Source: Opitutaceae bacterium (lineage in GTDB: Bacteria > Verrucomicrobiota > Verrucomicrobiia > Opitutales > Opitutaceae). Taken from it: a DNA stretch of 42,531 bases. Of this stretch, positions 7,656-20,814 are shown piece after piece. Where the stretch lies: positions 1 through 42,531 of the forward strand of contig JABIRI010000225.1 of the NCBI GenBank assembly GCA_018667915.1. Direction: 5' to 3'. Within the stretch, counting starts at the first letter, position 1; the number at the start of each line of letters is the position of its first letter. Made by a program: the position numbers and the translations under genes. The notes beneath the pieces were generated by a model that ran no database searches, was not told the DNA's origin, and saw only the letters and a program-made list of their open reading frames with translations.

Positions 7656-8444
7656 TTATTTATCCCGACTTCTTGTCCGAGACTTGCTCGAACCGCGTTT
7701 TTGCGGATCCGTCACCTCACCGACGCGTTCCCATTGATCCTGCTTCTTCTCATCGAACTTGTAGGATACCGCCATCGCCACCGGCGTGGGTTCGCCATCT
7801 TCGTTGAGATGGGGGGAGAAATCCAAACTGACCGTCGCCGCCAACGCGGAAGCGATAAAGTGAGGATCTTCGCCAATCAACACCTCGGGATTCACGACAT
7901 CGCCATACTCATCGATCACAAAATTGATTACGACTTCCTCCCGCTTGCCCGTGCCGTTCAACTGCGGCGGATAGTAGGGCTCGATCCAAGCCGAAGGTTC
8001 CGGCCACTCGCCAATATCATCGGCTTCGGTAGGTTCGTTTTCAAATCGTTTGAATACGTTACGTCCGGCCCACTTGCTGAGGGGATCGTCGGACCTCACG
8101 ACAAACATGACGGGCATTTTCACCCGTTGGTGCACGGGTAGGCCATCACGACGAGCCGGCGAAAATCGCCATTTGGCCAACACCTTTTTGACCGACTCCC
8201 CAAACGCTGGATGCGTGGCATAGGATACATCGGGGTTCTCCACCGCGCCCCGGCGCGTGACCTCAAAGATCACTTCGACCTGCCCTTCGACTCCAGCCGA
8301 GTGCAGGTCCTTCGGGTATTCAGGTTCGACCGGCCGCGTCAGACGCGGGGGCACGAAATTTTCGGCTGCGATCAGACCAACCATGCCAAAGACGCAGCCA
8401 AAGACGGCGCCGTGAATCAATCTCTTCGGGATCAGGTTACTCAA
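7656..8444 (-). CDS. Energy transducer TonB-like protein with two TonB C-terminal-type domains
   Basis: N-terminal hydrophobic segment, then two related units (RPVEPEYPKDLHSAGVEGQVEVIFEVTRRGAVENPDV.. and EPYYPPQLNGTGKREEVVINFVIDEYGDVVNPEVL..). Confidence 0.75.
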   Translation of the reverse strand: MSNLIPKRLIHGAVFGCVFGMVGLIAAENFVPPRLTRPVEPEYPKDLHSAGVEGQVEVIFEVTRRGAVENPDVSYATHPAFGESVKKVLAKWRFSPARRDGLPVHQRVKMPVMFVVRSDDPLSKWAGRNVFKRFENEPTEADDIGEWPEPSAWIEPYYPPQLNGTGKREEVVINFVIDEYGDVVNPEVLIGEDPHFIASALAATVSLDFSPHLNEDGEPTPVAMAVSYKFDEKKQDQWERVGEVTDPQKRGSSKSRTRSRDK

Positions 8445-9285
8445 TGACGGTATGCGTTCTGGATACTTCGCCTTTTTCGTAGTGGGACATCGCTTCGTCC
8501 ATCAGCTCGTTAATCCTAATTTGTCGTTGCGGGAAACTGGGGTGATTTGCGAGCCAACCGTTGGCCGTTGGACCGCCTTTTGAAGCGATGTCCTCTTCCA
8601 TGCGTTGCAGCAAGCGCAAGGATTGGCGAGGGTCATAACCGGCCTTGGCCATATAGATTAACCCGATGTGATCGGCTTCGAGTTCTTTGCCCCGATCAAA
8701 CGCGGACTGGGTAATCGCCGTAACCCCGCCACCGGCAGTCGAACCCACGCTGGGGACATAAATCCCGGTGCCGCCAATCGTGGTGCCAATCCCGATTGAA
8801 GTCGCCGCCCCCAGAGGCTTGAGCATCCAACCCTGCGAATATTTCTCGTGGGTGTGTCGTGCGGCGACGTGAGCGATCTCGTGTGCGATCACGGAGGCCA
8901 GCTGGTCTTCGTTTTCGCAAAAATCAATTAAACCCGAAAACACGCCGACTTTGCCTCCCGGCATGGCGAACGCGTTCATGACCCCCGGAGCGTGAAATAC
9001 CGCAAACTCCCAATCCGCGTGGGGGACATCCCAGAACACGGTTTTCGACAGACGACGGCCGATTTGCTCTACGATCCGGATTTGCGCCGGATTGCGCGAT
9101 GCACGCTGCATCTTCTTAATCGAAGCAAATTCTTCGGCGGCCTTCTTCGAAATGTCCTGATCGTCGACCAGATTGATGGCGTTACGGCCGGTAACGGGAA
9201 CTTCCTGACAACCAACGGAAGCCAACAGAGCAACCCCCACGAGGGTGGGCAGGAAAATGGAGCGTATAGAAAGTCGATTCAACAT
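8437..9285 (-). CDS. M48 family metalloprotease, lipoprotein (BepA/LoiP-like)
   Basis: HEIAH zinc motif, downstream ELEADHIG glutamate region, lipobox LLASVGC. ATG at 9285 preferred over ORF-track start 9408. Confidence 0.9.
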   Translation of the reverse strand: MLNRLSIRSIFLPTLVGVALLASVGCQEVPVTGRNAINLVDDQDISKKAAEEFASIKKMQRASRNPAQIRIVEQIGRRLSKTVFWDVPHADWEFAVFHAPGVMNAFAMPGGKVGVFSGLIDFCENEDQLASVIAHEIAHVAARHTHEKYSQGWMLKPLGAATSIGIGTTIGGTGIYVPSVGSTAGGGVTAITQSAFDRGKELEADHIGLIYMAKAGYDPRQSLRLLQRMEEDIASKGGPTANGWLANHPSFPQRQIRINELMDEAMSHYEKGEVSRTHTVIE

Positions 9286-9543
9286 GGCGAAGGACCAGGA
9301 AAATGGGCGGAAAGGGGGAAGCTCACAGAGACCGGCTAATGCCCAAAAATGTTCCACTCGGATCCATGATAGCAAGTTCGAGGCCCATTTTGCCCCCCGA
9401 CCACCCAACTAAACGCGCTTCACTCGTTGAAATTGCCTCAGAAACAGGCAGTTTTTCGAAAAATTCATTCAGACTGAACAAATCCTGATCCGGGCAGTCC
9501 AAACCCTCCTGCCCTAAAACTTTTCAATTCGCTCGATCCGAAC

Positions 9544-11220
9544 ATGTCAGATAAACAGCCCCCCAAGCATCAGGTCATAGATTGGAACCCCAACGCCTCC
9601 CAAGGTCAGGGTCCCAAAGGAACTACAGGCCGAAACAAAATCTTCGCCACGATCGCGGTCGTTTCCGCCCTCGTAGCCGTCGCTGCCATTGGACTCTCCT
9701 GGCGCGCCGTCCAACAACAAGAGGCGTCCAACGCTCCGGTCATTACCGCCGAAGAGCAGCAGGAACTCGCCTACAAGAGCCGCGGCCGGGCCGAACTCGC
9801 TTTCGAGACCGCATCCCAAGCCATCGGCGCCGCGCGTAGCCTGCCCATCAATCACGAGGGTCTCCTCCAAGAGATTGCCCTGATCGAAAAGGCTTTCCTT
9901 CTCGCTGAGACCCAACTCAAAAACGGCGACTACGCCGAAGCCGGTATCGCCCTCGAAACCGTGATAGCTAACACCGAGGTGTTCACCGAAACCGTCGAGA
10001 TGCAGCAAAACGCCAACAAGCGTTACGACGATCTCTACGCCCGCCTCCGCGCCGCCGAGCGCTACAAGGAGTTCTCCGTCACCTCCTATGATACCGCCTA
10101 CAGCTCCATCGGCGAGGGTCGCCACCTACTTGAAGCCGGTTCATTTCGCGCCGCCTGGCAAGCCTTTGATGAAGCGAGCGATACCCTCGATGACTTTGAG
10201 GCCCGCAAAAAAGAATTCGTGACCGAAAATCTGCGGGCCGGTCAACGCGCCTTGAAGAACGGCGATGGCCAAACCGCCGAACTCGCCTTCCAAACCGCCC
10301 TCAAATACGACTCCGCCAACGAAGCCGGCCTCCGCGGTCTCGATCGCACAGCCAACGCCGCGGAAGTGTTTGAGCTCCTCACCACCGCCAAGATCGCGGA
10401 AAAAAACGAGGACTTCGAACGCGCCATCGCCGACTACGACCGCGCCTTCGAACTCGATGAATTCTCCACCGTCGCTCAACAAGGCGCCGCCCGCGCCCGC
10501 TCCGACCAAAAGGAATCCCAGTTCAACGGATTCGTCGCCGCCGCTGAGGCGGCCGCCGAAGAAGAAGATTGGACGAATGTCATTTCCAACTACGAGCAAG
10601 CACTCGAAGTTGATCCCAAACGCGACGACATCGAAGACTCCCTCGACCTAGCGCACGAGGAACACCATGCCGCCATGGTCCATGACACGCTGAGCGAAGC
10701 CTACGATCTCGAACGTGAATACGAGTGGGACAAGGCCCGCGTCGCCTACGAGGAGCTGCTCGACCTCGAGCCCGACTACGAAGATGCCATCGAAGGTTTG
10801 ATCCGGGTGGGTCGCACCGTGCGGGCACTTCTGGAGTATGAAAAACTCCTCGAGCTTTCCGAACAGCACCTGCTCGCAGCCGACTATCAGTCCGCCATCC
10901 GCCGCTTCAACGAAGCGATGCAAACCAAGCCCAGCTACCTCGAAATCACCCCCGAGGCCGCAGAGATGCGTCGCCTGCTGGAGGTCAACAGCAAGCCGAT
11001 CGACATCACGTTCGTTTCCGACACCAAAACCTGGGTGAGCATCACCAATTTCCGTATGCTCGGAAAAATTAAGCAGGAGATGGTTTCACTGCCACCGGGC
11101 GACTACGAAGTCATTGGCCGTCGTAAAAACTATCAGGATGTGATGCTATTGCTCAAAGTGCGTCCGCAGATGTCTACCCATCTCGTATCGGTCATCTGCA
11201 AGACTCGCGCCGATTCCTAA
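9544..11220 (+). CDS. Membrane-anchored TPR repeat protein with C-terminal PEGA-like beta domain
   Basis: N-terminal TM (NKIFATIAVVSALVAVAAIGLSW), multiple TPR-like helices (YDRAFELDEFSTVAQQGAAR, YEQALEVDPKRDDIEDSL, YEELLDLEPDYEDAIEGL), C-terminal VSLPPGDYEVIGRRKNYQDV. Confidence 0.8.
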   Translation: MSDKQPPKHQVIDWNPNASQGQGPKGTTGRNKIFATIAVVSALVAVAAIGLSWRAVQQQEASNAPVITAEEQQELAYKSRGRAELAFETASQAIGAARSLPINHEGLLQEIALIEKAFLLAETQLKNGDYAEAGIALETVIANTEVFTETVEMQQNANKRYDDLYARLRAAERYKEFSVTSYDTAYSSIGEGRHLLEAGSFRAAWQAFDEASDTLDDFEARKKEFVTENLRAGQRALKNGDGQTAELAFQTALKYDSANEAGLRGLDRTANAAEVFELLTTAKIAEKNEDFERAIADYDRAFELDEFSTVAQQGAARARSDQKESQFNGFVAAAEAAAEEEDWTNVISNYEQALEVDPKRDDIEDSLDLAHEEHHAAMVHDTLSEAYDLEREYEWDKARVAYEELLDLEPDYEDAIEGLIRVGRTVRALLEYEKLLELSEQHLLAADYQSAIRRFNEAMQTKPSYLEITPEAAEMRRLLEVNSKPIDITFVSDTKTWVSITNFRMLGKIKQEMVSLPPGDYEVIGRRKNYQDVMLLLKVRPQMSTHLVSVICKTRADS

Positions 11221-11233
11221 ACCGCATTTCACT

Positions 11234-12073
11234 ATGACGACCGCTCGAGCATTCCTGCGACCCTCTGCCGGAGCTTTCCTGTTAGCCCTGAGCGCCACGT
11301 GGGCCGGTGCCCAAGTCGAACTGCCTCCCTTGCAAACCTCGGGATCAAGTCGGAGGACTTTGGAGAAACCTCAGTCCTACGAACCGGCTATTTTGCCCAG
11401 CGCTCGCGTGAATTCACGCAACGCTCGCAGCACCTCCAAGATTCCTGATCCCGGTATCTTTGACGGCACGGACTTCCCCGAGGAAGAACGCCCCGAACAG
11501 GCCCAGATCGCCCAATTTGAAAACCCCGGCGGACAACCCCCGCCTCCCACCAAGGACGAAAAAGGTCCCGGCCAACAAAAAGGCGGCGGCGGCTCCGGTC
11601 CCGGCGGTGATGGCGGGCAACAACCAGGCGGCGGTGGACCTCAACTCGCCGGCGGACCGCAAATTCCCGGACTCCCGCCCATCATGGGTGGCGGTGGTGG
11701 CGCCGGTGGCCAACCCGGCCCCCCTCCCCCCATTCCTGAAGGCGACCAAGGTGACGCCGGCCAACCCGGCGGCGGTGGCGAAGGCGAACCCGGCGAAGAA
11801 GGCCAAGAGGGTCAGGGCGGGGCCGAAGGCGCGCCCGAAGCACCCTCGTCGGAAGGCCAACAGGGCCGCGCCCTCGAAAAACCCTCTGAAATCCAAATCG
11901 GCGACGAGAATGCCAAACTCGCTGAAACCGACCTCCCTCAGACCGATCCCTCGCGCCAGCTCGAGAGTAAACCCGGCGAAGACCGCATGAGTGTAAAAGC
12001 GGCCTCCGGCAACCAATCCTCTAACCGCGGCAAAGGCTCCGAACGCGGCGTGGATATCCCCTCAAACCTCTAA
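11234..12073 (+). CDS. Secreted Gly/Pro/Gln/Glu-rich low-complexity protein
   Basis: Signal peptide (MTTARAFLRPSAGAFLLALSATWAGAQ), 13 bp after the TPR gene; GGG/PPP/GGEGEPGEEG low-complexity centre. Confidence 0.7.
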   Translation: MTTARAFLRPSAGAFLLALSATWAGAQVELPPLQTSGSSRRTLEKPQSYEPAILPSARVNSRNARSTSKIPDPGIFDGTDFPEEERPEQAQIAQFENPGGQPPPPTKDEKGPGQQKGGGGSGPGGDGGQQPGGGGPQLAGGPQIPGLPPIMGGGGGAGGQPGPPPPIPEGDQGDAGQPGGGGEGEPGEEGQEGQGGAEGAPEAPSSEGQQGRALEKPSEIQIGDENAKLAETDLPQTDPSRQLESKPGEDRMSVKAASGNQSSNRGKGSERGVDIPSNL

Positions 12074-12079
12074 AGCCCC

Positions 12080-13138
12080 ATGACCCGCGCGACCGCTTTC
12101 TTCTCGATCCTGATCCTCGCCACCCCGCTGACCCTTTCGGCCTATACGGTGGTCTTTCCCACCTCCGCCATTGAAGCCGCCTGGGAGCTCAACGCCGAAG
12201 AATTTAAGCAGGAATTCCCCGGCATCGATTTCACCGACCAAGAACTCACCGACGAGGGTTGGTATGTGCGCTATCAGCACGAGAACCTGACCTACTTTTT
12301 TGGCCCGATCGAATCCGAAGGCGAGGCCTACCAACACGAGGGTAAGATGCATGAGCTGCGCAACGACGTCGTAGCCAAACGCCCTGCACTCGGAACCAGC
12401 GAAGTCGATGTGGTGTTCTATTCCTACGATCCACGCATGGGCACCCCCGGGGGACCCGGCGGTTATGGCAACGGCGGCCCCGGCATGGTCGTCGATGGCT
12501 CCGATGAAGGAGACCCTTACGGCCAAGGTGGCCCGAACGATCAAGGCGACGGCACCGGCACCATGAACGGTCCCGGCCAAGGACTCGCTCAACTCGACCC
12601 CATGGGCCAAGGCCAGGGTCAAGGACAAGGCGGCCCACAAATGGGCCAGATGGGTAACCAAGCTGGCGGACAGGGACAACAAGGTCAGCAAATGGGACAA
12701 CAGGGATCACAGTCCGGTGGCCAGGGGCAACAAGGTCAGCAAATGGGCCAGATGGGTTCTCAAGCAGGCTCTCAGGGCCAACAGAGTGGCCAACAAGGGT
12801 CGCAGTCCGGGTCTCAGGGTCAGCAGAGCCAATCGCAAAGCGGCCAACAAGGGTCACAAGGTCAGCAAGGACTCATGAGTCAGCCCCAACTCGCCCAACT
12901 TGGTCAGATGCCCGGGCAACCTGGTCAGCCGGGACAACCTGGTCAGCCCGGTAGCCCAAGCTCATCATCATCCTCTTCGAGCAGCTCCAGCAGCTCGTCC
13001 TCATCTTCCTCCAGTTCGTCATCGAGTAGTTCTTCGAGTTCATCATCGAGCAGCCCCGCTTCGGGCCAACCCTCCCGCCCCAGCTCGAGCCTAGACATCG
13101 CCGAAATCATCCGCCGCCTCTTCGGCCTCGGCGGATAA
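12080..13138 (+). CDS. Secreted protein with N-terminal globular region, Gly/Gln repeats and 32-residue poly-Ser tract
   Basis: Signal peptide (MTRATAFFSILILATPLTLSA); follows previous gene by 6 bp; GQQGQQMGQ repeats and Ser32; short C-terminal helix-like DIAEIIRRLFGLGG. Confidence 0.7.
   Translation: MTRATAFFSILILATPLTLSAYTVVFPTSAIEAAWELNAEEFKQEFPGIDFTDQELTDEGWYVRYQHENLTYFFGPIESEGEAYQHEGKMHELRNDVVAKRPALGTSEVDVVFYSYDPRMGTPGGPGGYGNGGPGMVVDGSDEGDPYGQGGPNDQGDGTGTMNGPGQGLAQLDPMGQGQGQGQGGPQMGQMGNQAGGQGQQGQQMGQQGSQSGGQGQQGQQMGQMGSQAGSQGQQSGQQGSQSGSQGQQSQSQSGQQGSQGQQGLMSQPQLAQLGQMPGQPGQPGQPGQPGSPSSSSSSSSSSSSSSSSSSSSSSSSSSSSSSSSPASGQPSRPSSSLDIAEIIRRLFGLGG
12604..12958 (+). repeat. In-frame degenerate Gly/Gln/Met/Ser coding repeats
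   Basis: 20-nt identical copies caacaaggtcagcaaatggg at 12677-12696 and 12728-12747, spaced 51 nt (17 codons). Confidence 0.8.
12959..13054 (+). repeat. Poly-serine coding tract (32 consecutive Ser codons)
   Basis: Direct reading of codons agc tca tca tca tcc ... tcg agc agc before ccc gct. Confidence 0.95.
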
Positions 13139-13288: not shown

Positions 13289-14857
13289 ATGCGAAATAGC
13301 CACCCTCTTCTCCTTTTCTGGACTGCTTGCAGCACCATTCTGATTGCCGTTTTCGCGGGATTCCACTTCGGCCGAAAGTCGATTTTTTCCCAGGACCCTC
13401 CACGGGTGGTCACCGCGGAGTTCGAACAGTCGATCGATTCGATCAGTGCTCCATTCAGTTTTTCAGAACCCATTCCACTGAAACGCTTGGCCACGGAGTG
13501 GGAGCCACAACGGGCCTTGATCCTGTCTATGTCGTTTCCCGACAGCATGGCGTCACCTGATGTTGCCACATTTCAGATTCAGCTGCTGGCCATCGCCCAT
13601 CAATACACCGCAATTCTGGTATTTAGTGAACACGACCACACTCGGGCGCACGCCTACTTTCTGTCGCTGCTCGCGGATCATCCCCAGGCCGATAGTATCG
13701 CGCAAAAGACCCACTTCATCGACAGTCGCAATCTGATGCGCTGGGTTCGAGATTTTGGGCCACTGTTCGGTTACGATCTCAACCGTGAACTCGTCGCAAT
13801 CGACTTCGTTTATCGAAACCTCAATCGTGACCCCCGCCAGTCTAACCTGACGGAGTCGGATTCGTTCCGCCAATTTCTTTCCCAACAAGGCGATGCCATG
13901 CCTACGGACCTCGTGGTCGAACTTCGTCGACGCTATGAGGAGGAAGTGAGCCTCGTGCGCCCTCCTCTTATGATGGATGGAGGTGATTTTGTGTATGATG
14001 GAAACGGAAACGTATTCATCTCCGCCAAGACGCTGGTGCGCAATGGCGGGAACCACCGTAAGCTACAGACCCTCATCGAGGACTATCTCGGAGGATCAAA
14101 ATTACATGTTTTGGAAGCCCTGCCAGGCGCCACCGTCAATCACTTGGACATGATTCTGAAATTCGTCGATTCCGATACCGCACTCATTCCCTCCTACCAG
14201 TCTCCGCCGGTTGAGTCTTTAAACCGCTATCAACTGAATCTCACGAATCGCGTGCAAGAAGTCCTGAAAAACAATGAGACCTATCTGCGCGAAAAACTGC
14301 CCAACGTGCGTTTGATCAAAGTGCCCATGCCGCCCATCATGTTTAAGTCGGCCGACGAGGTATTCGTTGAAGTTCGCACCGAATTTTTCGAGATGATGGC
14401 ACTCGGACTCGAGGTTGTTACCGCTGAAGACCTCGGTCGTTTATCTGCCCGCGGACGAGCGAACCTCGAGATACAAATGAGAGAAGTTCTTCAAAAAGAG
14501 ATTGGGCGCGCCGACTTCGATTCCCTCAACGGTTTCGACTCCGTGCTTAGACACTATCAGCATATGCCATTGAGCAAATATCTCGACCTACACTCCGAGC
14601 CCGTCACCCGCTACCGGTCCTATATAAATAGTGTATTCTTACGCAATCCGGCGGGAGACCACGGATTCGTAATTCCGCGATTCACATCAAATCAACCAAC
14701 CGAAGCGGCCCAACTGAAGGACTGGGAAAATCAAGTGCAAGCGGCCTATAAGGTGGCTTGGCCCAAAGCTCAAATCCACTGGATAAACTGTGACAGCTTG
14801 GTTCCCGATATGGGTTTCGTGCACTGCATGACCATGACCGTGCCGGCCGGCCCTTAG
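13289..14857 (+). CDS. Agmatine deiminase/peptidylarginine deiminase-family protein with N-terminal membrane anchor
   Basis: WEPQRALILS, WVRDFGPLF, MDGGDFVYDGNGNVFIS, NHLDMILKFVD, GFVHCMTM correspond to guanidino-group-modifying enzyme motifs including catalytic Cys and His. Confidence 0.75.
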   Translation: MRNSHPLLLFWTACSTILIAVFAGFHFGRKSIFSQDPPRVVTAEFEQSIDSISAPFSFSEPIPLKRLATEWEPQRALILSMSFPDSMASPDVATFQIQLLAIAHQYTAILVFSEHDHTRAHAYFLSLLADHPQADSIAQKTHFIDSRNLMRWVRDFGPLFGYDLNRELVAIDFVYRNLNRDPRQSNLTESDSFRQFLSQQGDAMPTDLVVELRRRYEEEVSLVRPPLMMDGGDFVYDGNGNVFISAKTLVRNGGNHRKLQTLIEDYLGGSKLHVLEALPGATVNHLDMILKFVDSDTALIPSYQSPPVESLNRYQLNLTNRVQEVLKNNETYLREKLPNVRLIKVPMPPIMFKSADEVFVEVRTEFFEMMALGLEVVTAEDLGRLSARGRANLEIQMREVLQKEIGRADFDSLNGFDSVLRHYQHMPLSKYLDLHSEPVTRYRSYINSVFLRNPAGDHGFVIPRFTSNQPTEAAQLKDWENQVQAAYKVAWPKAQIHWINCDSLVPDMGFVHCMTMTVPAGP

Positions 14858-14879: not shown

Positions 14880-15887
14880 CTAGTTCGTGCGCACGGCGAT
14901 GAAGGCGCCGTCGTGCTTGTAAGCAACCTCACGCATGAGGTTCGCAAACTTCATGCCGGTGTGCGCTCCCATGAGCGGGTAGCGCAAGACCGTCGGAAAT
15001 CCGACCGCGTTGATCGAAACGTGCCGCGATCCGTCTTCTTTGCGCGGATTGATCGTTTCGAGTCGGGCGATAACCGGCTCCGCCTGGCCGGTAAATTCAT
15101 CACCGAAGACAAACACCGCCATATCCATTTCCGGGTTATCGGGCTGATACAGCGATCGGATGGCCCGGAAGATTCCCGGCACTGGGTTCGAATTACTAAA
15201 GGTGGGATAGTTCGCCAATGCCCGCATCGCGCCGAGGCGCGTTTCCGGCTTGTCATCGAGCCAGATTCCGGGAGTGCCGCGGAGCATGAAGCGGCCGTCG
15301 GCATCGAGGAACTGCACGCCTTTGATTTCCGGGTAACTATCTAAAACGTTTTGGATCTTCTCCATCGCCATCGAATTAAGTTGGTCGGTCGCGGTGTCGC
15401 GCATCGATCCCGAGGTATCAAAAACAAAGGCGATGTAGTTGCTCGCGATGGGCAGGCCCACCGGCAGGTTGATGTCGGGCAGCGGCATCTCCACATCGAG
15501 TTCCGTCTGCATGGAGGCGATCTGGTCTTTTTCGTCCTCCATCTCTACCATCATCTTGTCCTGTCCGGCTTGCAGCTGGGCGATTTGCAGGCTCAAGGTG
15601 TCCATCATCGAACGGAGCCGTTGGGAACGGGTCTGAGCTTGGTTGACCGAGTCCTTTGCTTCGAGCGCGCGCCGGGCAACTTCGGTTTCGCGGGCGTCGA
15701 GTTGTTCCATTTTGGAGAGCCGACGCTGGGCCACCTCCTGCAATTGATCCCGCAGCGTTTGGATCATATTGTTGGCCGAACCCATCGTAATCACGAACAG
15801 CAAAACGATCGCGCCGAATCCGCAACAGATGCAGTCGAGGAAGGACAGGCCGAAGTCGGCGGTCTCTCTTTTGGATCGGGCTCTCAT
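14880..15887 (-). CDS. VWA domain protein with ExbD/MotB-like N-terminal TM and coiled coil (VWA-1)
   Basis: FGLSFLDCICCGFGAIVLLFVITMG TM with Asp; long Q/E/R-rich coiled coil; VWA with intact MIDAS DTSGSM. Confidence 0.8.
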   Translation of the reverse strand: MRARSKRETADFGLSFLDCICCGFGAIVLLFVITMGSANNMIQTLRDQLQEVAQRRLSKMEQLDARETEVARRALEAKDSVNQAQTRSQRLRSMMDTLSLQIAQLQAGQDKMMVEMEDEKDQIASMQTELDVEMPLPDINLPVGLPIASNYIAFVFDTSGSMRDTATDQLNSMAMEKIQNVLDSYPEIKGVQFLDADGRFMLRGTPGIWLDDKPETRLGAMRALANYPTFSNSNPVPGIFRAIRSLYQPDNPEMDMAVFVFGDEFTGQAEPVIARLETINPRKEDGSRHVSINAVGFPTVLRYPLMGAHTGMKFANLMREVAYKHDGAFIAVRTN

Positions 15888-16954
15888 CGGATGTCAGGCC
15901 ATGACGGCGCGGGGCTAACCAGGGCACCTTCCGTGCGGTCCGCCAGTTGCCAGAAAAGGAATGGCGACGCGGGGTCTCCTTCCAATGGGTAAAGGATCGT
16001 ATTAATCGGAATATCGGATGCGGCGACACGCACGGCGGCATTGAAATAGCGCACCCGGTCCTGTTCCGAAACGAAGTCTCCGCTCGGATACGTGTCGCTT
16101 TGCGTCGGGAGTCCATCGGTGAGCATCACCACGGCATCGGGCACCGTGCTCAAACCGCGCAACACACTGAACGCACGCTCCATATTGGCGCCACCTTGTG
16201 GCACAATCTTCGCGAGCGAGTCCAACACCTCCTGAATCATTTCACCGTCTTCGCGATGGATCCAATCCACGGAGTGCGTATCGATCAGCGGCTCGGTTTC
16301 TTCCGCGAACATGAGCACTTGAAACGACGAGTCGGCTGGCAGTGACGAAATCATCCAACGAATCGAATCGACCACCCGGACCCATTTGGTTGAGGCGCGT
16401 TTCTCGTCATCAGTTTTGCTCTGCATGGCAACGGCTTCTTCAATGGTATTGCCCACCATGGAACCGGAAGCGCGAACGAGAAACAAGATGTGCTCCCCTT
16501 CCATTTGGAATCCGGTGAGATATTGGCGGCGTTTGACATTCGGAATCGGAACCGGATCGGGCACTTCGGCGGTGGCGAGCTCTTCTTTTTCCGCGAGCAA
16601 CTCCTCCATCTCCTTCTGCATCTTCGATTCGCTTTGGAGTAATTTTGCGAGCACCTGCTCGAGCTCGGTGACCTCCTCTTCGGTGATCGTATTGCGCGAT
16701 TCCGTTTGCTCGCTTTCGCCCTCGTCGGCCTGGGCCTCGAGCGTGATGCGTTCGATACGATCTTCCTGACTTTTCACATCAAACTCATACTGGCCCACCA
16801 CTTCGCGAATCTCGGCCAATTGCTGTTCCTGCGCGTTGCGCTGTTTACCGGCCACCAAAACAAAAAGCAGCAGCACACCGCCAAAGCCACAGCAGATGCA
16901 GTCCAAAAAGGAGATGCTAAAAATCTGCTGAGAGCGCCGTTTTCGTTTGGCCAT
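15884..16954 (-). CDS. VWA domain protein with ExbD/MotB-like N-terminal TM, degenerate MIDAS (VWA-2)
   Basis: FSISFLDCICCGFGGVLLLFVLVAGK TM; VWA start LVRASGSM; VVMLTDGLPT motif; ATGA overlap with VWA-1. Confidence 0.8.
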   Translation of the reverse strand: MAKRKRRSQQIFSISFLDCICCGFGGVLLLFVLVAGKQRNAQEQQLAEIREVVGQYEFDVKSQEDRIERITLEAQADEGESEQTESRNTITEEEVTELEQVLAKLLQSESKMQKEMEELLAEKEELATAEVPDPVPIPNVKRRQYLTGFQMEGEHILFLVRASGSMVGNTIEEAVAMQSKTDDEKRASTKWVRVVDSIRWMISSLPADSSFQVLMFAEETEPLIDTHSVDWIHREDGEMIQEVLDSLAKIVPQGGANMERAFSVLRGLSTVPDAVVMLTDGLPTQSDTYPSGDFVSEQDRVRYFNAAVRVAASDIPINTILYPLEGDPASPFLFWQLADRTEGALVSPAPSWPDIR

Positions 16955-16973
16955 GGCTGCGCTTAAATTCGAA

Positions 16974-18434
16974 TCAGGCTGTGCCTGGTCGGCTTTCGGC
17001 GACGATCAATAATTCCACTTCTTCGGAGCCGGATTTGATTTTCACCCGATCACCGGGAGCCATCAAGAGTGCACCGGAGTCAGGGGTTTCGATATGCCAT
17101 TCACCATCCTGACGGATGAGGCGAACCGGAACGGGACCCAGTCGCGCCAAGGAAGGAACCGCCGGAGCATCAGCGTTTTCATCGCCTTGTAAAACCTCCG
17201 GAAGTGCGTGCAACGAGTAGGCCGCTCCATCGACCACCAGATGGCTGGCCACCAGACCGGCCGAGGGTTGAGCAGCGGCGACATGAACGACTTTGACTCC
17301 ATCGCCGCTCTGGGTCGGTGCACTGGCAGAAACTTCCACTGTGCTTACCACGGGGACCATCGAGATATCTTCGGCGACGTCTAGGCCAGCGGCGAATTTA
17401 GCCGCACCGCGAGCCGCCGCTCCGTGCTGAAGATGCACCACCCGGCCGAAGCCGCGCGTCGCCAGCGCTTCGTCCATCCCCGGCAACATGCCAACCCGCG
17501 AACTCACCACGACGGTGACATCTTTCGGGTCAAACGAGCTATCGTTTAAGAATTTTACGGCCGCGGCGGCCCAACCTTGTTCGTGGGGGCCAAGATCACG
17601 GCGGATAGTTTCGCGCGGAAACGCCGCTTGATACACCCGGGACGAGGTCTGAATGGAATAACGGATGTCGGAGCCGTGGCTCCCATCGAGCAATTGCTCA
17701 CGCGTCTGTTCGTAGAAGAGTTGATCGAGTTCGCGTTGGGCGGTAACATCAAAAGCGGTCGCGCGCAGGAAACGGTTCCCCATCGATTTGTGCAGGCCTT
17801 GGATCAGCGGCACATATCCGAGTCGGGGCAACCGCATGTAACGGCGGCGATTCAGGCGGCCTTCAACGTCGGTGGTGAGCAAGGACATTGCGGCCGAATG
17901 AAGGTGCAAATCCATGTAAAGGATTCGCCCACCGGTAATGCCACCCATCGAGTCCGGATCGTTGAGGGAACTCGTGGAGAGCCCGCACAAACCCGCCAGC
18001 GGGATGCCCAGATCGCGGGCCATCGCGAGGATCAATCCCATCGCAGGATTATCCGAATCGGCGTCGCCGAGCAGCTGACCCGGCATAGCGAGGACCACCT
18101 TCTCGGGCTTCTCGGATTGGGCGCAGAGGTTTTCCCAGAAGGAATGCAAAAACGCATAGGCCAATTCGGAATAAGCCGGGGTGCGCGGTGGTCCTTCCAA
18201 ATCGGATGGAGACAGGGACAGATGCTCCCAAAAGACGTGACTGGCCGCCCGCGGATGCAGGCGCCATTCTTTCTCGGCCTCGCGACCAAAGACGAGTTCG
18301 GAGCCGTTCCAGGCCGCGAATGCCGGCCACGCGCCAGCCGCTTCGTTGACGACCGCCGGTCCATCCGTCGTCGGATCGACCACCGCCGCGTTAAAACCAA
18401 AATCGGAAAACTCAATTCCACATACGTGTGCCAT
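16974..18434 (-). CDS. Hsp70/actin-fold ATPase-like protein with C-terminal beta-rich (FHA-like?) extension
   Basis: GIEFSDFGFNAAVVDP (phosphate-1-like), RILYMDLHLHSAAMSLL (phosphate-2-like, degenerate), VTVVVSSRVGMLPGMDEAL...GAAARGAAKFAAG (adenosine-motif-like). Confidence 0.6.
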   Translation of the reverse strand: MAHVCGIEFSDFGFNAAVVDPTTDGPAVVNEAAGAWPAFAAWNGSELVFGREAEKEWRLHPRAASHVFWEHLSLSPSDLEGPPRTPAYSELAYAFLHSFWENLCAQSEKPEKVVLAMPGQLLGDADSDNPAMGLILAMARDLGIPLAGLCGLSTSSLNDPDSMGGITGGRILYMDLHLHSAAMSLLTTDVEGRLNRRRYMRLPRLGYVPLIQGLHKSMGNRFLRATAFDVTAQRELDQLFYEQTREQLLDGSHGSDIRYSIQTSSRVYQAAFPRETIRRDLGPHEQGWAAAAVKFLNDSSFDPKDVTVVVSSRVGMLPGMDEALATRGFGRVVHLQHGAAARGAAKFAAGLDVAEDISMVPVVSTVEVSASAPTQSGDGVKVVHVAAAQPSAGLVASHLVVDGAAYSLHALPEVLQGDENADAPAVPSLARLGPVPVRLIRQDGEWHIETPDSGALLMAPGDRVKIKSGSEEVELLIVAESRPGTA

Positions 18435-18465
18435 GATTTAAATAATAGAGGTTGAGGAGGCGGGA

Positions 18466-19350
18466 TCAGACAAACGTGCCATCGGCATCGTCTCGCGCCG
18501 GCACTTTCATGAGGTCCACAATTTTGATCCGGCAATATTCCTGAAAGTCTTGAATGAGGTGTTCTTGGCGCGACTGCAGCAGATGCATGAAGAACATCAG
18601 AATGATACTGAGCACCAGAGCGACGAGGGTCGAATTAAACGCCAATCCCAGCGAGTTGGTAACGCCGGCCAGATCGCCTTTCAGCGCCTCGTCGGCCTGC
18701 GCCAACGCATCACCAATACCGCGCACCGTGCCGATAAACCCGACGGACGGAATCGCCCAGGTGATGTAACGCACCAGCGACAGATCTGAGTCCAACTCAT
18801 CAGCCGCCGCTTGAGAGCGTTCCTGCACGGCGCCCGCCGCGTCCTGGATGGAGTGCGTCGCATTAAAACGCTGCAGCGCGGAGAGCACGAAGCCGGGCAG
18901 CAGCTTATTCGTCAGACTCCTCTCATTCTCCACCACGGTCTGAACCTCCTTCGAATAATCCAGCGCCGCCTCGGGCAAAATCCGTTGTCCGAGCTCGAGC
19001 TCGACAAATTCACGGCCGATCACTTGGCGCTCACGCCCCACCATCCAAAGTTTATAGGCCAAGAGGATCGTCGCCCAGACCATCAGGGTCAAACAGGCCT
19101 GCTGCTCGTAGTCTTTAAGGATAACGACGAAGTTACGTTGGGATTCTTCGGATTCCTCGGCTCCACGGTTTTCCAGGATGCGACGTGTGATCTCAACCTC
19201 CGCCGCTTGGGGGCGAATATATTGGCTGTAGAGCTGGCCGACACCAAGAATGGCGATCAACAAACCAACACTCTGGACGATAAAACCTTGGGTGAAAAAT
19301 CCTCGCTGGGGCAAAGAGGTCATGGGAGTTAAGAGCGCAGGGAATGACAA
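18466..19350 (-). CDS. MotA/TolQ/ExbB proton channel family protein
   Basis: Hydrophobic segments plus AIPSVGFIGTVRGIGDALAQAD...GVTNSLGLAFNSTLVALVLSIILMFF, characteristic of the MotA/TolQ/ExbB domain. Alternative start ATG 19323 (MTSLPQRG). Confidence 0.9.
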   Translation of the reverse strand: MSFPALLTPMTSLPQRGFFTQGFIVQSVGLLIAILGVGQLYSQYIRPQAAEVEITRRILENRGAEESEESQRNFVVILKDYEQQACLTLMVWATILLAYKLWMVGRERQVIGREFVELELGQRILPEAALDYSKEVQTVVENERSLTNKLLPGFVLSALQRFNATHSIQDAAGAVQERSQAAADELDSDLSLVRYITWAIPSVGFIGTVRGIGDALAQADEALKGDLAGVTNSLGLAFNSTLVALVLSIILMFFMHLLQSRQEHLIQDFQEYCRIKIVDLMKVPARDDADGTFV

Positions 19351-19478: not shown

Positions 19479-20078
19479 GTGAAAAACATTCGTCGCCCGA
19501 TAATGAGAACTCCCGTCGCCGCCGCCATCCTCCTTTCCTTTGTCGTCCTGTCCGGATGCAAAGTTGCTCCTTCTAAAACAGCCAAAGGCGCCGGTATTGG
19601 CGGCGCCGCTGGTGCCCTCGGTGGAGCCATTGTAGGCAATAATACCGGATCCGGTAACGCCGCATCGGGTGCCGCCATTGGTGGTGCCGCTGGAGCGATC
19701 GTCGGTGGAGCCGTCGGACTCGTCCAAGAAATGAAGGAACGAAACGCCCAGGATCGCCTCGCTCAGGAGCGCGCCTACCAACAAGAGGTCGCCCGTAAAC
19801 GCCAGGAAGAGGCCCGCCTCAAGGAACAGCTTGACGAAGAACTCTCTATTGCACAAGGCTTTAGAATCACTGACGCCGAACTGAACGACGCTCAACGCCG
19901 GGCGGATGAGACCGCGGGCCGTCTCGCCGAACTCAAAGCTGAGCGCGAATGGGCTCTGAGTCGGAAAAAGGAACTTGATGAGACGGAAGCCAAGATCGCG
20001 GCCGAAACCGCCGAAATCGCTCGTCTCGAGGCTGAACTTGCGGAACTTCGCGGTGAAACTACGGTCAGCAATCCCTGA
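19479..20078 (+). CDS. Glycine-zipper lipoprotein with C-terminal coiled coil
   Basis: Lipobox VVLSGC; GAGIGGAAGALGGAIVGNN..GAAIGGAAGAIVGGAVG glycine zipper. GTG at 19479 or ATG at 19503. Confidence 0.75.
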   Translation: MKNIRRPIMRTPVAAAILLSFVVLSGCKVAPSKTAKGAGIGGAAGALGGAIVGNNTGSGNAASGAAIGGAAGAIVGGAVGLVQEMKERNAQDRLAQERAYQQEVARKRQEEARLKEQLDEELSIAQGFRITDAELNDAQRRADETAGRLAELKAEREWALSRKKELDETEAKIAAETAEIARLEAELAELRGETTVSNP

Positions 20079-20091
20079 CTCGCCTCTCTTC

Positions 20092-20814
20092 ATGGTCCGC
20101 TCCCCGCTTCAGCTTTCTCGTCTTTGCTTACTTGCCCTCGGCTTGCTCGTAGCAGCTGGCTGCACAAGTAACACCTACAACGTTAAGATCAACGCCATCG
20201 CCAACGATGCGAAGGAATCCGGTGAATCTTACCGCATCGTCACCAAAAATGGCGGCGACCCCCAAACCGACCTCCGCACCCGTGAAGCGGTGGACTATGT
20301 GAAAGCCGCCCTCTCGGGGCGTGGTCTTTACGAGGCGCCCAATCCCGAAAGCGCCGATATGGTGGTCGAGGTCGACTACGACGTCGAACCTCCCCGCGTC
20401 GAATTTGAATCCCGCTCTGTGCCGATCTTCGCCCGCATGGGCGGCGGCGTCCGTTCGGTCATCGTTCCCACCCGCGATTCTAACGGAAACATCCAATACC
20501 GCCGCGTGTCCGTCTTGGATCCACCCAGCCAGGAGCTGATCGGGTTCGAGGAAAAGACTATCCCGGTAACGGTTTACGAAAAATATCTTCGCGTATCTGC
20601 CCGCGAAAACGTAGCCAGCGGCGACGATGCCCCTCCCGAACAGCTCTGGAGCGTCTATGTTTCGAACGAAGCGGAAGATGATGACATCCGCAGCGCCTTA
20701 CCCGTGCTCGCCTCCGTCGTGGTCGATTATATCGGCGTCACCACCGAAAAGGATCAAGAGGTGAAGGTGAACTCCGAGACCGACGAGGTGGACTTCATTA
20801 AGCGCGGCATGTAG
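20092..20814 (+). CDS. Hypothetical lipoprotein (DUF4136-like region)
   Basis: ATG at 20092 (MVRSPLQLSRLCLLALGLLVAAGCTSN) with lipobox; ADMVVEVDYDVEPP pattern. The longer ORF from 19975 overlaps the preceding gene. Confidence 0.65.
   Translation: MVRSPLQLSRLCLLALGLLVAAGCTSNTYNVKINAIANDAKESGESYRIVTKNGGDPQTDLRTREAVDYVKAALSGRGLYEAPNPESADMVVEVDYDVEPPRVEFESRSVPIFARMGGGVRSVIVPTRDSNGNIQYRRVSVLDPPSQELIGFEEKTIPVTVYEKYLRVSARENVASGDDAPPEQLWSVYVSNEAEDDDIRSALPVLASVVVDYIGVTTEKDQEVKVNSETDEVDFIKRGM

Follow-up and report, generated by a model that had tools for sequence, protein, structure and literature searches.

A MotA/TolQ/ExbB-family channel encoded with an Hsp70-like/FHA protein and two VWA proteins: a probable ion-driven motor of the bacterial envelope

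Motors of the ion-driven 5:2 type stand behind processes as varied as iron uptake, gliding, phage defence, the stability of the outer membrane and the working of flagella. The locus described here raises the question of what is built from a channel of this type when the adjoining genes encode an Hsp70-like protein and two VWA proteins, in the place where ExbD or MotB might be looked for. The original prediction, made from the DNA alone, took the set for an undescribed ion-driven envelope machine. The four genes lie in the window, by which is meant the whole stretch of 42,531 nucleotides of Opitutaceae DNA that was analysed:

18466..19350, minus strand: MotA/TolQ/ExbB-family channel subunit (Pfam search, MotA_ExbB, PF01618, E 5.5e-16)
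16974..18434, minus strand: protein resembling the Hsp70 nucleotide-binding domain, with a C-terminal FHA-like domain; probable pseudo-ATPase regulator (predicted fold, profile matches)
15884..16954, minus strand: VWAa, with a putative N-in single TM helix bearing Asp18, a helical stalk, and a VWA domain with a degenerate MIDAS (Asp18 in 90/90; VWA_3, PF13768, E 2.4e-4, below the Pfam cut-off)
14880..15887, minus strand: VWAb, with a TM helix bearing Asp18, a helical stalk of about 87 residues, and a VWA domain with an intact DxSxS MIDAS (invariant residues, AF2, Foldseek)

All four reading frames are present on the minus strand, and the tight co-directional packing that had been described is exact: running from the channel through the Hsp70-like protein and VWAa to VWAb, the spacings are 31 bp, 19 bp and then a 4-bp ATGA overlap. 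The frame given for the channel also stands, with the exception of its start, which is more likely to be ATG 19323 than TTG 19350, because the N-termini of the aligned homologues begin there. A plasmid record with annotation was looked for, and none was found.

The same arrangement is found well outside this genome. At least 348 related loci turned up when GTDB species genomes were scanned; of these, the best 80 belong to Opitutales and Puniceicoccaceae, Kiritimatiellota, Desulfobacterota and Gammaproteobacteria. When 94 loci were compared, 70 had the channel, Hsp70-like, VWAa and VWAb genes in the same order on one strand, in Verrucomicrobiota, Kiritimatiellota, Desulfobacterota and Gammaproteobacteria alike. 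A further 11, mainly from Puniceicoccaceae, have the channel and the two VWA genes with no Hsp70-like gene between the channel and VWAa, which is why we regard the Hsp70-like gene as accessory; the channel gene and both VWA genes thus form one co-directional set in 81 loci. In nearly all of the remainder the set runs off the end of a contig, and no other gene order was seen among the 94. The original prediction would have been refuted had the four genes not occurred together in other genomes; it was not, and as the same order recurs in dozens of them, the set is far beyond chance.

The two VWA genes co-occur in nearly every genome that has either. VWAb was found in 15 of 103 genomes of the order, with VWAa adjoining it wherever the contig allowed. 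The family is nevertheless patchy, being present in 18/289 genomes of the phylum and in 21/274 of the class of a Colwellia genome, with many close relatives lacking it. A tree of the three core proteins groups mostly by phylum, and their pairwise identities correlate (r 0.92-0.95), a correlation that shared ancestry alone would in part produce. In one genome (G008) the operon is split over two contigs (L042 and L144), VWAa and VWAb lying apart from the other two, and none of the four is missing. The channel and Hsp70-like genes of that genome adjoin apparent restriction-modification and PIN-type genes.

The Pfam match bears out the assignment of the channel to the MotA/TolQ/ExbB family. For the ion path, TolQ is the useful comparison: its T145 and T178 are known essential pore residues, equivalent to T148 and T181 of ExbB. 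The channel profile aligns to TolQ residues 99-211 (PDB 8odt), which places channel T208 and T241 on these two threonines, and both are invariant in 83/83 sequences. A reading in which the equivalent of ExbB Thr148 has gone from the channel was also considered, and is ruled out by the pairing of TolQ T145 with T208.

Both VWA proteins start with a basic stretch followed by one hydrophobic helix (peak at residues 16-34) that carries SFLDCICCGFG, as the original prediction had noted in describing a single TM segment with a common motif. Because the helix comes after a short basic N-terminus, each protein should, in the manner of ExbD, have its N-terminus in the cytoplasm and its VWA domain in the periplasm. 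The aspartate in this helix, D18, is invariant in VWAa (90/90) and in VWAb (90/90), 180/180 together. The name VWA is itself weak by sequence, and clear by fold for VWAb. For VWAb, AF2 predicts a single helix of 109 residues (16-124) followed by the VWA domain (pLDDT 82.8), and Foldseek matches this predicted fold to solved VWA domains such as that of BatB (3ibs, E 4e-6), while the sequence match of VWAa stays under the cut-off given above. The two proteins differ at the metal site. In alignments of 90, VWAb has D157, S159 and S161 invariant along with D18, keeping the DxSxS site in 90/90, and VWAa has S163 and D280 invariant with the first MIDAS Asp absent. Of the two, only VWAb has a full MIDAS.

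The resemblance to ExbB-ExbD and TolQ-TolR is therefore considerable, comprising a PF01618 channel with two pore threonines, and a single-TM partner with a basic N-terminus and an Asp at the start of its helix. The differences are that the partner here carries a stalk and a VWA domain rather than the ExbD/TolR domain (PF02472 has no match in the VWA proteins), that there are two different partners, and that the channel has one extra predicted TM segment. It had been proposed that the VWA N-termini be compared with ExbD by profile. This comparison is not significant (probability <1%) and is no better than that for control TM helices, although its best alignment pairs SFLD with PLID, Asp on Asp; as evidence from sequence that the VWA helix is an ExbD homologue, it has failed.

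It is worth asking, then, whether an ExbD encoded elsewhere could fill the pore, with the VWA proteins acting as side transducers on the edge of the channel pentamer, as TolA and TonB do. The genome does encode several ExbD proteins, and ExbB-family loci on contigs C354, C220, C271, C191, C245 and C267 adjoin ExbD (two each on C220 and C271). However, every ExbD in the genome, bar one weak match (C219), adjoins its own ExbB, and the search found none on the contig of the present locus (C12), where the VWA pair stands instead. The ExbB-family matches on C107 and C77 are likewise without an adjacent ExbD in these searches. A family of side-binding vWA transducers has been described (PMC12204202), which also has a TM-tethered VWA protein next to a TolQ-like motor, and the ExbB-ExbD-ExbD locus on C220, with its TM-tethered VWA protein (L142:3958-5286), resembles it and lends the idea some weight. 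The described transducers accompany a pair of ExbD/TolR proteins and bind through a His/SHLS motif (PMC12204202), whereas the VWA proteins here occur paired without ExbD, have the invariant Asp, and yielded no conserved His/SHLS motif in their helices. We consider it unlikely that they act from the side. The C220 locus is of some interest in itself, as an apparent copy of the side-binding class, with a large TPR-like gene, ExbB (L142:6161-6901), two ExbD genes and the VWA gene.

The same paper (PMC12204202; Mol Biol Evol 2025, msaf138) bears on whether the present system is new. Its second vWA family (TPH-vWA / TolQ-like, Fig. 4c-d) is described as TM-tethered vWA proteins that co-occur with tolQ homologues, in heterologous pairs, with no tolR/exbD and a conserved TM Asp, in Proteobacteria and Verrucomicrobia; AF3 places the helix with this Asp inside the pentamer of the TolQ homologue. 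This is apparently the same family as ours. A TolQ-like gene adjoins two different vWA genes in all 81 loci, the search of this genome for ExbD found none on contig C12, and the TM Asp of both vWA proteins (180/180) and the threonine ring of the channel (83/83) are all in place. We infer that the locus belongs to this vWA motor family, judging its sameness with the published one, whose query is from Idiomarina, by these features. The channel with its VWA pair can thus no longer be called undescribed, because that family has been reported, as a prediction of 2025 for which the account in PMC12204202 gives no function or experiment. The passage describing the family makes no mention of the Hsp70-like/FHA protein, of the PEGA/FGE/lipoprotein cluster or of the MIDAS asymmetry, and relative to it what is new here is the Hsp70-like/FHA candidate regulator, that asymmetry, and a better-defined gene neighbourhood. 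In the open-access literature, neither a review of 5:2 motors from 2022 nor a paper of 2025 on MotAB evolution mentions vWA proteins.

The Hsp70-like protein of this locus has no HSP70 match in a Pfam search, and indeed no match to any Pfam family. The structure predicted by AF2 (pLDDT 89) matches the nucleotide-binding domain of DnaK in Foldseek (E 2e-17, TMt 0.77), and profile searches match Hsc70 (141-353) and the Rad53 FHA domain (429-492). Pfam finds FHA in 15/54 homologues (best E 2.3e-14); the signature is clear in those from desulfobacteria and Woeseiaceae, and worn in the protein of the present locus. The substrate-binding domain of Hsp70 is absent, the C-terminus being FHA-like instead, and neither canonical phosphate-loop consensus occurs in any of 75 homologues. 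The protein thus combines the nucleotide-binding fold of Hsp70, its loops degenerate, with an FHA-like domain. The fold in the original term "Hsp70-like ATPase" is upheld, but the activity is doubtful, since the canonical loops are missing from all 75; to judge from these sequences, the protein is probably not a working ATPase. An active Hsp70 chaperone is ruled out by the absent substrate-binding domain and the degenerate loops.

Taken as a whole, the genes, their order, the invariant residues, the folds of VWAb and the Hsp70-like protein and the absence of an adjacent ExbD make it likely that the locus encodes an ion-driven inner-membrane motor of the MotA/ExbB/TolQ type, with a channel pentamer, a VWAa-VWAb heterodimer as its axle, and stalks leading to periplasmic VWA domains. 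The proposal that two Asp-bearing VWA partners take the place of ExbD or MotB gains from the co-occurrence across phyla and from the invariant ion-path residues. In such a motor, driven presumably by the proton (or sodium) motive force, the pentamer would surround one TM helix from each of VWAa and VWAb, which would form an obligate heterodimer. The two Asp18 residues would load and release the ion opposite the ring of Thr208 and Thr241, and ion flow would turn the pair, the motion passing along the long helical stalks to the VWA domains in the periplasm. These may pull on or remodel a lipoprotein assembly in the periplasm or outer membrane (TPR-PEGA, PEGA-FGE, glycine-zipper and other lipoproteins), though this target is a guess; VWAb would probably grip its partner through the metal site, with VWAa having a structural role. 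Gating or tethering of the motor is the probable role of the cytoplasmic Hsp70-like/FHA protein, which would be dispensable in some lineages. Besides the profile comparison with ExbD, two features speak against the model: the TM helix is rich in Cys and Gly (CICCGFG), unlike those of ExbD, MotB and TolR, and a stalk with a VWA domain is not a peptidoglycan-binding domain.

The loss of the canonical nucleotide loops from the Hsp70-like partner, and of the MIDAS Asp from VWAa, means that parts of the system are degenerate, and might suggest a complex that has ceased to work as an ion motor and now has a structural or signalling role, with the channel fold as a scaffold and the Asp structural. 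The residues kept without exception, however, are exactly those of the ion path, Asp18, Thr208 and Thr241, and such a complex seems improbable to us.

A Zorya-related anti-phage system, in which a MotA-family channel and an Asp-bearing partner serve in defence, is rejected as very improbable: the distribution is patchy even inside a family and the channel has weak ZorA profile matches (E 1.9e-5), but these are confined to the channel among the four proteins, none of which matches the peptidoglycan-binding ZorB, or ZorC, ZorD or ZorE, the channel (294 aa) has no long cytoplasmic ZorA tail, the channel/VWA phylogeny largely tracks the large taxonomic groups, and the neighbours are envelope lipoproteins rather than nucleases or other effector-like genes.

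What the motor might act on is suggested by its neighbourhood, which in the window includes:

8437..9408, minus strand: M48 metalloprotease lipoprotein, a frequent neighbour (PF01435, E 2.8e-30)
9544..11220, plus strand: TPR protein with an N-terminal TM segment and a PEGA-like C-terminus (TPR-PEGA), a conserved partner (TPR_2, E 7e-13)
11234..12073, plus strand: MID, a secreted protein of low complexity encoded between the TPR-PEGA and F5 genes (by position and a similar C-terminal end)
12080..13138, plus strand: secreted protein F5, with a conserved N-terminal domain and a Gly/Gln/Ser-rich tail (family in 13 loci)
19479..20078, plus strand: divergent glycine-zipper lipoprotein (YMGG zipper E 1.3e-6, YiaD family E 6e-13)
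19975..20814, plus strand: DUF4136-type lipoprotein, whose true start is probably more internal (PF13590, E 3e-4, below the cut-off)

Families of these proteins recur near the motor genes: the glycine-zipper lipoprotein in 34 loci, the M48 protease in 24 and the DUF4136 lipoprotein in 21. The glycine-zipper and DUF4136 lipoproteins (window 19479-20814) often flank the motor genes in Verrucomicrobiota, as does, convergently, the TPR-PEGA cluster. In the gammaproteobacterial and desulfobacterial loci, a lipoprotein (c5), the TPR-PEGA protein (homologous to that at 9544-11220, in most of these loci) and a TM-anchored protein (c4) precede the motor genes, and lipoproteins and an M48 protease often come after them. 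The c4 protein has four PEGA repeats and an FGE-sulfatase domain, the closest NCBIfam model being GldK/PorK (E 2e-29); this PEGA-FGE fusion is found directly upstream of the motor genes at L130:4383-6443 and in about 43 loci, outside Opitutales, and is absent from the cluster in the window. The four genes are thus part of a larger conserved trans-envelope cluster of TPR-PEGA, PEGA-FGE, lipoproteins and M48 protease. Lipoboxes are frequent (c5 30/39, c9 22/24, glycine-zipper 19/34, DUF4136 18/28), which together with the envelope and lipoprotein neighbourhood points to a machine that reaches the outer membrane.

There is a parallel here with the ion-driven GldL-GldM motor and GldK/PorK of type IX secretion, in that the operon in other genomes has an FGE-fold protein closest to GldK. 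It differs in that no GldL, GldM or GldN was seen, and in that the FGE protein is TM-anchored and fused to PEGA repeats. A bolder version of the motor model, which we regard as possible though rather doubtful, has the Hsp70-derived pseudo-ATPase, with an FHA domain reading phosphothreonine, switching the VWA motor on and off, and the motor working an outer-membrane assembly of PEGA, FGE and lipoproteins. If true, this would be a phospho-regulated functional counterpart of the GldLM-GldK arrangement.

The motor itself would be a widespread further branch of the 5:2 motors, based on VWA proteins and tied to an Hsp70-like/FHA protein, for which the conserved cluster supplies a parts list. The cultured carriers Pelagicoccus, Microbulbifer, Seongchinamella and Marinibactrum make deletion tests possible.

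Some smaller features of the neighbourhood may be added. MID and F5 were considered as homologues of the gammaproteobacterial c12 and c7 proteins, and homology was not supported on comparison. A gene family in the same position as MID does exist in Opitutales loci, the likeness consisting of position and a similar C-terminal end. The F5 protein has a long unbroken serine run near its C-terminus. Between its gene and VWAb lies a PF04371 peptidyl-arginine/agmatine deiminase-type gene (13289-14857, plus strand), which did not emerge as a recurrent neighbour elsewhere, and adjoining the M48 protease gene is that of a secreted protein (7656-8444, minus strand) that looks like two tandem TonB C-terminal-type domains. 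Small low-complexity proteins also stand next to the motor at L130:6443-6766 and, as the c26 family, in L066, L067, L069, L076 and L077. Their C-terminal ends are strongly conserved, being ISEDLSVSFPVDI-like in the gammaproteobacteria and EKGRVMPxGL-like in Opitutales, and are perhaps recognition signals.
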